NCBI GenBank assembly: GCA_963402885.1
Contig: OY727103.1
Location: forward strand, 9,884,085 to 9,948,084
DNA from: Antedon bifida
Taxonomy: Eukaryota; Echinodermata; Crinoidea; Comatulida; Antedonidae
Reading direction: 5' to 3'
DNA length: 64,000 bases
Below, piece by piece: positions 23,501-35,500 of the stretch (position 1 is the stretch's first letter; every line of letters begins with the position of its first letter). The translations under genes were made by a program, and so were the position numbers. Below the pieces are notes generated by a model. It saw only the letters and a program-made list of their open reading frames with translations. It did no database searches and was not told where the DNA came from.

Positions 23501-26500
23501 TTTTATCAACTTGCAACTATTGAATACCAAATAAGTACATATTTTATACTAAATGGACATTGACATCACAAACTCTGATTATCAATATTTCTACACAAAA
23601 AAAAACATCAAATTGTCCATATCAAAATGGAACCATTACGTAGAATAAAGACAAACAATAATATTATTACTTATTATTCTTGAAATCAACAGTTTCAATG
23701 TGGATGAGGATGGAACATTAGCTGTTCCTATCCTACTACTTGTAGGCCTATCAACAGTTTCAATGTGGATGAGGATGGAACATTAGCTGTTCCTATCCTA
23801 CTACTTGTAGGCCTATCAACAGTTTCAATGTGGATGAGGAGGGAACATTAGCTGTTCCTATCCTAAACTTGTAGGCCTATCAACAGTTTCAATGTGGATG
23901 GGGATGGAACATTAGCTGTTCCTATCCTACTACTTGTAGGCCTATCAACAGTTTCAATGTGGATGGGGATGGATCATAATGTTCCTATCCTACTACTTGT
24001 AGGCCTATCAACAGTTTCAATGTGGATGGGGATGGATCATTAGCTGTTCCTATCCTACTACTTGTAGGCCTCAGCTCTTGAAGAATAGAGAGCTTTAGAG
24101 TTTATTGAGCCTCATTTAATATTCTAAATGGGAAACTTAAAATAGAAAATTAATATAAATTAAATACAGTTTTGTTGTTTTACGAGTTTTTACAAAAGGT
24201 TGATTTCCGTTTTTATATTTGGTCTAAGCTGTTGAAATGAATATTTAGACACAATCTCCAGCTCACTATGGATTAAACCGATCAAACCATTGTAAACAGA
24301 TTGTAGACATCTAAAAACACTGTACTGGACATTTGCTTTTTGTCATTTGCTTTTTGTCATTTGCTTTATTCTTAATTATTAATTTCAAAATGATAATGAC
24401 CCTGATATTGATGACTCACTCACATCATTGGTGCTTAGGTAAACCATGGAAGCTATTTCATCAGGGTGTATTCCAATTTAGAATTAGATTCACAGTGGGA
24501 GGGTTGCTTTCAATTACTGTATAAATATTGTCATCACTATTTTTGACCATTTGAATTTTAATAAAGTTGTTTATGATGTTATACAGCTACTATTTACTAT
24601 TTAAAGGGTTTTTCTCGCTTCTTTTTCTCTTTTCAACTCCAGTAAATAAAATCTAACCTCAATCGATATTTGCACAGGTGTGAAAGACATTTTAGAAATA
24701 CTGTACACTTGTGGATCAGTGGTAGCACTTACAATACAATAAGTCATCCTTATTTAATACTGTACACAAAAACGTATAAAAAAGAAAAGGTATTAAATAA
24801 AACAAAGAATTAATAAGGCAGATCAAGATAGTGGTTATAAATGATTATGATTCGACTTTAATGTATATTCATATAGGCCTACTTGCTCAAATGGAATACA
24901 ACATTGTAAATAGTGAACGAGTCAAATGACCTAGCGGTTAAGGCAGGGTCACTGTTTACCGTACTACTACAGAGCCAACAATATTGGCGTGGGTTTGGGG
25001 CCGACTTGCTCCATGGTAGAACAAATCTTCTCGGATAAGGACTATAAACTGTAGGTCAAATGTACACAGTTTATGAGCAATTTAAAGAACCCAGTTCATT
25101 ATTGGAGACGAGAGTAAGGTGTTAGCCCGGTGAATTGGTTCACAAAATAGTCCTTGATGTATCAGGGGGATTACCACCTATCTGATAGGACAGTGAATAA
25201 TTTACTATTTGTAATCCTAAAGACATAAAATAAGTAACTAGTGACTGGGGATAAACAGATTTAATATAATATTTATATTGTTAATTTTGAAACGATAAAG
25301 ATGAGGAAATCTGTAAAAATGAGAAAAACCTGGTTGGAGTGGCTTTTTCAGTTCAGTATACAGTATCCTTGTGGGTTTAGGGTTCCATCTATGCTAACTG
25401 TATCATGATATTGTTTTTATTTTACTGTTTTTAGTAAATAATAAATATTTCCTTTTTATTTTACATACCACATACATACATACCTTGATAGGAATCATTC
25501 AAAATCAAACTATTTGTTTCCTTCACTATTGAGTTTGTTTGATAAGGTACAGATGCAATACATGAGATTATTGTATTGTAATTCATTAGTGAAACCATCC
25601 CACCCATTGTGAATCTAATACTAAAAAACCCACCCATTATTAATGACCATATCGTTGGAGTTGGCTACCTACACCATAGTAGTTCTACCACCTGCTGTGT
25701 ATAAGTAAATTACATTACTGTAATTACATTTTAGTTTCTACTGTACAGTTCCAAAGTTTGTGATGAAAAACTAAAAAATTAATAACCTGACCATAGAGTA
25801 GAACCATTGAATATCAATTTTACAACTGTTGAATGGAACGAAATACCAATATCACATAACATCAACCAAATCGCCAGGGTATATTTCAATTTATACTGTA
25901 ATTATTACACAATTAAAATTATTCATTTTGCAGGAGATTCAGTGATGCAGAGTGTACATGGACAACCAACTCCTAACAGACAAGAGGAGAAGAATATGGT
26001 GGGGTTAACGCATCGCCGTGGTGCTGTCCGCCAGGCAAAGATTCACGAGCACAGGGGTCACAAATTTCAAGGGCACTACTTTAGACAACCTACATATTGT
26101 TCCTTATGCAGTGAGTTCATTTGGTAAGAAAGACATTTCCTTTTTAACAAATGTGTAGTTCAGTAAGAAGGTCATGCGTTTGTGAATGATTTTGCAGAAT
26201 TCTCAATAGTACTGCGCCATAAGGTGTGGTAATAGTATATTTTTAGAACACAGTTCTGTGACAAGGGGCTAGCAAAATGCACAAGCGTGCATTTGTTAAT
26301 GATTATCAGCATAGAGATGGTTATGTACCTGTACACAGTAAAGTAAAGTGTAAAAATTTACAGTTACCATATTTGGTTAAAGAAAAGCTTTTTAAGAGTG
26401 CTTGTCACCAAAAATCAGACATATTCGTAATTTAGTGGCAAGGGTCAAAATTTCGAATTGGCTCATATTTTGCACATCGGTAGACCTTGATGTAAGTAAA

Positions 26501-32500: not shown

Positions 32501-35500
32501 TATTTTTCGATTTTCTCGAAAACTAAGCGATATTTTACCAAACAAACTACACATCAGGTTTACTTACATCAAGGTCTACCAATGTGCAAAATATGAGACA
32601 ATTCGAAATTTTGACCCTTGCCACCTAATGTTTGATTTTTAGTGACTGGCTCTCTTAAATATTTTCAATTTCTGTGATTTTCCAATGTAAGAATAGTCGC
32701 ATGTACAACCAGCTTAAACCTGGCATTACTACTCATATGATAATGTAACAAGCTTTAATTTGGTCAGATTTGCCCTACTCTGACGCAATTGTATTGCTAA
32801 TGCTAAAAACATTTGAGAAAACATTTTCGGGTGGGACTCAAACACACAAACTGCAGATAACTGGGCTAGAGGTATGAGTTAGATTTGATGGCTAGGGGTT
32901 AGATTCAAACACAAATAAGCAGCAGGTGCTGCACCAACAGGATGATAATTGTAAACTGCTTGTTGTTTTCAGGGGTGTGGTTGGCAAGCAAGGTTATATG
33001 TGCATGAGTGAGTATATAATCAATTCATTTCTACTTTAATTACTTTTCTTTATTAAAGATAAAAATTTCATTTTTTTTATATTATATCTTTTTTTTTAAT
33101 TTGAAATTCATAAATGAAAATTGATTGTCATATAATTAATGAAAACAATAACAGCATTGTTATTTTTATTATTTATTTATATTTATTTATTCAAAAGTAC
33201 AAAACAGACGGAGTAGAAATATAAATGGCAATGAAAGACCAATTATGTGCTAAATACCATGCTAGTTGGTCAACCCAATAAAAATAAATTGTAATCTAAA
33301 TTTCTATATGCAGTTCAATTTTTTAAGCAAAAAAAGAAAGACTCTAAAACAGCAATTGTCCCCATGTTTTTGTTGAATTTAATGTTGAAAATAATGTTAA
33401 TTAACCTATTAAAAAATGAAAGCTAAAGTATGTATGTAAACACTGTTTACACAGTAGATAAAACAAAATAGATACATACTGTAAAATATAATGTTAAGTT
33501 ATGTGTTCAGAGTTAATAATGAAAAAGTGATGAACACATATAGCATGTATGAATGATTAAAATCAAAAACAATGTTAATGTCAATGTTAAAGCTAAAATA
33601 TGTATGTGAACATATTTAAACATAATGTCAATAGATACAGTTAAAATATACTAGAGATACTACATGGCATATTAAGAGAAACATACTGTATATATAGAAA
33701 TAAAACTTGGGACGAATCTGTGTAGGACAAAACAATCTTTTTCTACGGAAGTGATTAAATTTAAAACAGCAAAATGGCCCATTCAAAGTCTTTTTTTATT
33801 AATCTTCATTTTACATGTTTTTTGGAAACAATACATCTTTAAAATAATGAATAAATAATTATATTTATAATTATAGTGAATAATTTATTGTTTTGATGGC
33901 AATTTTGTGCAACATTCCAAACATAAAAAATTGTTTGGGATTAATTTTAGTAGATTTAGTTGTTTATTTTTTTTAATTATATTTTTTGTTTTTTTGTTTA
34001 TTAGTTTGTACACTTGCCGTTCATCGACGATGTTATCAGAAGGTACTCACAGGTTGTCCTGGAGCCGGTGTGGAAAGTGCTCATACTAAAGTAAACATCT
34101 CATGTTTAAAACTTTTTATCTAAGCTTGATATTTCTTCTGTGTTTTCTTTAGAAAGCTATCAGTGTGTAGTTTAAAGTTTTTTATATTGCTGGCGTTAAT
34201 TATCCATTCCATCGGCATGGTTGACCGTGCAATATTTAGAATAACTTTACATTACAATATATGTACAGTCAATATTAAATTACAGACATGCTGCTAGCTA
34301 CTTCCATATTTTTATTTTTATTAATTATTGATTAAAAATCTATTTTTTTTTTAGAAACTTAAGGAGCGATTTAATATCAACATGCCACATAAGTTGAAGG
34401 TTCACACATACCTGAGCCCCACATTTTGTGATCACTGTGGCTCCATGCTGTTTGGACTTTTTAAACAAGGCCTAAAATGTGAAGGTATTAATAATATCTG
34501 TTTTTAATAGTGATCAAATGTTCACCCTGTTTTGTGTATTATAGTTTTATATTTTCCAATTGTTGTTTTATTAGGTTTTTCCTATGAATAAGTGAAAGTG
34601 AAAATTAAAAGTTTATTTTTGTTTATATTCTGATTGAGTTAATGTCCATGCGAGGTATACTCTCTTGTGGTTTTTAAATATATTTAAATATTTCTATATT
34701 GCAAACTCTTTTAGACTGTAATGTGAACATTCATCATAAATGCCGTAAGAATGCTCCTAATCTATGTGGTGTCAACCAAAAACTGTTGGCTGAAGCAATG
34801 CAAGCAGTTGAGGTTAGTTTTGAAAATCATGGTTTATATAGCGCCATTCCAACAATCTTTTTAACTACATGCTTCTCACCTAAGGAATGCGGTCGATTCT
34901 AGCTCATCTGTCCACGACAGTGGCTATGTTAGCCATTACATTGGGGTATGCCTTACTCATCTCGAAAGACGTACTAGGTTCTTTAAAGTGCACACTGGAC
35001 TTCTAATATTAATAGTCCTTATTTGAGAAGTCTCATTCTACCACCAGAAACATGGAGCAAGTGAGCCTTGCACCCTTGACAGTGTTATAGCTATGGAATA
35101 CGGTTCCACTGTTTTAACTGCTTGGCCAATCACTTAATTACAAATTTTGTTAAATTTGTTTAGAGGAAGCAAGCTGGTAGCAGACACCAACATTCCCATG
35201 ATGCTCATGTGATTGGAGATCCAGATTCTGAGGATGAAGATGATGAGTAAGTTTTTCATTTCTTACTTCAATTGGCTATTAATATGAGTGATCCTAAATA
35301 CTAAGCCACACCAAGCCCTACCAGTAGATAGTTAGTTAGTTAGAGTTAAATGCATTTTTATCAATTAAATACTTTGGGAGCAATTTTGGAGTAAACATTT
35401 TTAAATAATCAATCAGCCTTGAGAATGTACAATGTGTCAATAATGCATGTATTGCGACAACTGGTATGTTTGCGTTGACATATGCAGCAAATACAACATT

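Follow-up and report, generated by a model that had tools for sequence, protein, structure and literature searches.

A TTAA-bounded transposon family with long inverted arms in the crinoid Antedon bifida, and a probable non-autonomous derivative among its copies

Transposons of the Sola3 subgroup prefer TTAA as their insertion target. In published descriptions, Sola elements encode a DDD transposase, generate 4-bp target-site duplications, carry inverted repeats of 11–1124 bp and are mostly 2–9 kb long (PMC10741241), and Sola1, Sola2 and Sola3 are treated as subgroups of one superfamily (PMC4455052). Kolobok elements are described as producing TTAA duplications and having 5'-RR...YY-3' termini, with a C/DxxH motif that follows the second Asp of the transposase and precedes its last acidic residue (PMC9587614). 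For piggyBac, the literature gives CC[C/T]T termini with inverted repeats of 12–19 bp (PMC2872659) and a DDD motif in an RNase H-like fold (PMC9499001). The locus analyzed here lies in a stretch of 64,000 nucleotides from Antedon bifida (GenBank assembly GCA_963402885.1, contig OY727103.1, positions 9,884,085 to 9,948,084 of the forward strand), referred to below as the window. Positions 26392–32658 of the window are occupied by a TTAA-bounded element with long inverted arms, which holds what is left of a multi-exon gene for a putative transposase.

The window element can be read, with a probability of roughly 70%, as a non-autonomous derivative of a young and recently mobile cut-and-paste family that most likely belongs to Sola and probably to Sola3. 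There is strong support for reading 26392–32658 as a DNA transposon that targets TTAA: the genome holds many near-identical copies with a 4-bp duplication and differing flanks, as well as a related empty site. The borders and arms are as follows:

26392–32658, no strand: entire element, both 4-bp target copies counted (26396–32654 without them)
26392–26395, no strand: left TTAA target-site duplication, from the comparison of copies
32655–32658, no strand: right TTAA target-site duplication, from the comparison of copies
26396–27154, plus strand: left inverted arm, starting with GAGTGCTTGTCAC
31901–32654, minus strand: right inverted arm, starting with GAGAGCCAGTCAC on that strand

The termini of the window element are GAG...CTC, inside TTAA at either border. 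When as many as three mismatches are allowed, the 26-base terminal pattern TTAAGAGNGCNNGTCACNAAAAATCA matches twice in the 64-kb window, at the two element ends; 0.01 matches are expected by chance, and none of 100 shuffles contained two. A 17-base version of the pattern gives weaker evidence when three mismatches are allowed (six matches against 3.4 expected), and exact matches to it occur only at both element ends. A chance palindrome was rejected on the count of terminal patterns and on the shuffles. Aligned to each other, the arms (26391–27154, 764 nt; 31901–32659, 759 nt) are 89.3% identical over 778 columns, and their outer 508 nt are 97% identical. A blastn comparison of the element with the window returned only the element itself and its two arms.

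The left arm was searched against the window's own genome, a 315.6-Mb assembly in 27 contigs, and 40 matches were scored from 105 candidates (31 left arms and nine right arms). With the 33 stretches fetched (L011–L043) and the window, 32 copies were examined, and both ends were resolved in 27 of them, the window copy included. The right end does not fall within the fetched stretch in the other five (L020, L029, L036, L038 and L039), and no right end is present in L042 or L043, which were fetched to complete L020 and L029. All 27 copies start with GAGTGC and end with CTC. Their flanks are TTAA on both sides in 26 cases and TCAA on both sides in one (L023), a copy that also carries an internal deletion. 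TCAA is not palindromic and reads the same way on either side, so these four bases come from a duplicated target and do not belong to the inverted repeat. The border is thus a genuine duplication of a 4-bp target site.

Comparison of 296–400 bp of flank around the 27 copies revealed no common origin apart from three exceptions: L016, L030 and L032 lie in one repeat family, L015 and L022 share a 51-bp match, and L019 matches itself. The repeat family that hosts L016, L030 and L032 is diverged and contains recurrent GATGACGTCA-like strings. The elements themselves are 98.6–100% identical among 26 of the 27 copies (99.1–100% among the first 19), and L041 is an older copy, 78–81% identical to the others. 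Because most copies are so alike, the family has probably moved recently in this genome. A search of the same genome with the protein gave 55 matches from 58 candidates, many at 98–100% identity and others decayed. No second distinct family was found among these 55 matches, and five short stretches among the weaker ones are decayed members of the same family.

The repeat copy beside L032 runs without a break across the position at which L030 is inserted, and a single TTAA lies there in a gapless match of 196 nt at 86% identity (32 of 39 positions identical to the left of TTAA, 131 of 150 to the right). A sequence-only reading of the window had described a TTAA-bounded transposon with long inverted arms, and had named multiple copies ending at TTAA and empty sites with a single TTAA as proof of its mobility. 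That description holds: the borders and matching termini are as it stated, the arms measure about 760 bp, copies are numerous in differing flanks, and an empty site exists at a paralogous position. The possibility that the locus is a single-copy host gene is refuted by the many copies returned by the arm search.

Twenty of the 27 copies are at least 6640 bp long. The longer copies (6.65–6.71 kb) carry a four-exon gene with a product of 1185–1187 residues. The copies have its splice donors and acceptors in common, which supports the multi-exon structure. Nine of the first 19 copies give an uninterrupted product, as do at least 11 of all 27. The latter figure is a lower bound, since products were read with fixed splice-site patterns, and in five of the 27 copies one of these patterns was absent, so that no product could be read. 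The residues proposed for catalysis are D635 in LDWAMKF, D719 in DNAGCYH and D760 in CDRK, separated by 83 and 40 residues and present in all nine uninterrupted products checked; a C2H2-like segment lies downstream of this candidate triad. We take DNAGCYHS and a second string to resemble the DNG...S and PQ..G..ER of retroviral-type integrases, as a lead only.

Variation within the gene was counted in 26 of the 27 copies, with the older copy L041 omitted; under neutrality, 24.5% of the changes would be expected to be synonymous. Variants found in at least two copies comprise 11 synonymous and 10 non-synonymous changes (p=0.005; one multi-base change set aside), and those found in a single copy comprise 33 synonymous changes, 53 non-synonymous changes and five stops (p=0.008; two set aside). 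These proportions suggest some purifying selection on the gene. The position of the gene in the element, the uninterrupted products and the synonymous excess together support its identification as the putative transposase of the element.

The copy in the window departs from this gene. Its parts, placed by copy-shared splice sites and by alignment to the longer copies, are as follows:

31144–31579, minus strand: putative transposase exon 1, from ATG, with CPLHR and further Cys, ending at a phase-1 donor (copy-shared splice sites)
30941–31047, minus strand: putative transposase exon 2, with a CSTC motif (copy-shared splice sites)
29676–30699, minus strand: putative transposase exon 3, frame broken in the window copy (copy-shared splice sites)
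29563–29571, minus strand: deletion junction (alignment to longer copies)
27962–29570, minus strand: remaining exon 4, with the second and third candidate Asp, the C2H2-like segment, an acidic run and the C-terminus (stop at 27959–27961)

A minus-strand open frame of 556 codons (27962–29629) covers the remaining exon 4, and the longest frame in 1000 shuffles of the region 27900–29700 has 191 codons. At 29563–29571, a 446-bp stretch of the longer element is replaced by 7 nt in the window copy. The deletion begins in intron 3 and removes the exon-4 acceptor and about 128 codons, D635 among them. In addition, exon 3 is 1024 nt long in the window copy versus 1023 in the longer copies, which breaks the frame. 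Because the exon segment with the first candidate Asp is missing and the frame is broken, no working enzyme would be expected from this copy. The intron-containing transposase-like gene of the sequence-only reading is therefore multi-exon as described, but only partial in the window, and the product of 27959–29587, in which an acidic triad was to be sought, cannot hold a complete one, since the deletion has taken the segment that carries the first candidate Asp. The C2H2-like segment of that reading is present, but its first Cys is Tyr in the window copy and its two closest relatives, L011 and L012; it is Cys in 23 of the 26 readable copies.

L012 and L011, both 6267 bp, differ from the window copy by zero and one base, respectively, and share its deletion. 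They lie 80 kb apart on contig 14 with TTAA duplications, and the flanks differ among all three copies. This near-identical trio in unrelated flanks suggests mobilization in trans, and the window copy is probably a non-autonomous deletion derivative that was moved very recently by an enzyme from sister copies. In the mechanism we propose, sister copies of about 6.7 kb would supply, from four exons, a DDD-type transposase of about 1186 residues. Its Cys/His-rich segments may be what binds the long inverted arms, and the enzyme would cut at the GAG...CTC ends. The element would then be inserted at TTAA by a cut-and-paste reaction that leaves the 4-bp duplication, and the window copy, without a working enzyme of its own, would use the one supplied by its sisters.

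Searches for relatives of the protein gave the following results. Pfam at E up to 10 returned no transposase match for exons 1, 3 and 4 and no hit of any kind for exons 1 and 3, and NCBIfam at E up to 1 returned no match to any model. Searches of PDB sequences gave six plus one weak matches at E 0.31 or worse, none of them a transposase or integrase; PHROGs at E up to 1 likewise gave no transposase or integrase, and one weak family of unknown function. The proposal that the gene encodes a DNA-transposon transposase thus draws on its position, its uninterrupted products and its synonymous excess, but not on any homology match in Pfam, NCBIfam or PDB. Scans of IMG/VR with the window protein, its core and the D635 segment found no relatives, a scan of GTDB genomes with the core found no match, and neither did tblastn against phages and plasmids; the collections scanned for relatives consist of viral, phage, plasmid and prokaryote sequences and are not meant for animal ones.

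Three isolated matches from these scans were rejected as chance. A degenerate DNAGCYH pattern in the IMG/VR contig L001 aligns over 19 residues at 63% (E 0.001, against two loci only), in a frame full of stops with virus-like genes as neighbors. The same pattern in the IMG/VR contig L002 comes with an alignment of 12 residues elsewhere (E 5.5). In GTDB, the D635 segment matches Jannaschia rubra (L044) in a single 35-column piece of an unrelated open frame, which we take to be HisG-like.

Judged by its architecture, that is, against the published description and not against Sola sequences, the family is most likely a member of Sola, probably Sola3, and this placement appears to fit better than a new superfamily. 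The element has a 4-bp duplication, arms within 11–1124 bp, a size within 2–9 kb and a candidate DDD triad.

Several points weigh against the overall reading. The three catalytic residues were assigned by motif reading, and no match in Pfam, NCBIfam, PDB, PHROGs or the phage and plasmid sets links the protein to any transposase. The older genomic copies all belong to the same family and so carry no information on which residues selection has kept. The variant tests treat the copies as independent and include three that are expected to be non-functional. The empty site for L030 is a paralogue and not an allele, with just 39 nt to the left of TTAA, and other repeat copies across the insertion points, 67–74% alike, mostly lack TTAA among the matches listed. 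Gene conversion could in principle explain the near-identical trio, and the different flanks with TTAA weigh against it. Finally, the Sola3 target is not stated in passages from six papers (PMC5199201, PMC8634313, PMC10294476, PMC5753468, PMC4455052, PMC7913693).

A different placement, which we regard as unlikely, would make the family an undescribed superfamily separate from Sola3: a TTAA-specific group of DDD cut-and-paste transposons, presumably spread across invertebrates, whose arms measure about 760 bp and whose four-exon gene encodes an integrase-like D(83)D(40)D core. The protein matches no Pfam transposase model (E up to 10) and no NCBIfam model (E up to 1), and we take it, as the sequence-only reading did, to belong to a family that is uncharacterized in cnidarians or invertebrates more widely. 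The known TTAA groups also fit imperfectly. The element has the TTAA target in common with piggyBac but differs from it in its GAG...CTC termini (27 of 27 copies), its arms of about 760 bp and the lack of a Pfam transposase match in exons 1, 3 and 4; a piggyBac model is present in Pfam. The Kolobok C/DxxH motif is absent as well. Against a separate superfamily, the 4-bp duplication, long inverted repeats, 6.7-kb size and candidate DDD triad all agree with Sola as published (PMC10741241), and absence from Pfam, which may hold no Sola model, is no sign of novelty. The suggestion in the sequence-only reading of a distinct group among TTAA elements is less likely than a place in the already described Sola superfamily.

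That the family is a divergent Kolobok seems highly improbable. The TTAA duplications and the termini GA...TC, which conform to RR...YY, would suit such an element, but the C/DxxH motif has no match between D719 and D760 or in the following 85 residues (126 residues downstream of D719), the third acid is read as Asp, no accessory protein was seen, and Pfam returned nothing for exons 1 and 3 and nothing resembling a transposase for exon 4. It is equally improbable that the open frame is a captured or accessory gene with the mobilizing enzyme encoded elsewhere: the protein matched no known transposase in the searches above, but its gene is the only long one seen in the element, is uninterrupted in at least 11 of the 27 copies and has a D..D..D layout, to which the strings that may resemble integrase motifs can be added.

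Two further features lie in the left part of the element and resemble miniature inverted-repeat transposable elements (MITEs):

27203–27347, no strand: palindromic MITE-like insert within the element, in a region alignable in the copies
27379–27784, no strand: second MITE-like insert with inverted ends within the element, in a region alignable in the copies

The region with both inserts aligns in 19 of the 20 first-fetched copies, L018 being the exception. The second insert has TA at its borders, as read by eye.

Some 270 bp upstream of the element, the window holds an exon matching the C1 region of protein kinase C (protein kinase C beta, PDB sequence, E 5e-14). In this upstream exon, the Pfam C1_1 model is partly covered and scores 21.9 bits, under its cut-off of 26.5. 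Exons of the protein kinase C gene are found on the plus strand at 25990–26124 and at about 36430, with the element in between; the kinase-like string near 36.4 kb was read by eye, in an open frame without a Pfam hit. Because it is flanked by the C1-region exon and the kinase-like string, the element is probably intronic, and its gene would then run antisense to that of the host. Just past the kinase-like string are two tandem arrays, with a 21-bp unit repeated 17 times at 36600–36958 and a 54-bp unit repeated about 46 times at 37526–40023. Farther along the window, repeats headed by tRNA-Val start at 53358, 55414 and 58013, each followed by the same open string, and occur with tandem arrays of 268–270 bp units at 52527–53296 and 56908–57951. 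The tRNA-Val-headed repeats are probably a tRNA-derived short interspersed element.

For the protein family that we take to be uncharacterized in invertebrates, these findings would provide a likely function. The near-identical copies with uninterrupted genes, together with a derivative that is missing one candidate catalytic segment, form a natural set that may be useful for learning how TTAA-inserting transposases outside piggyBac work.

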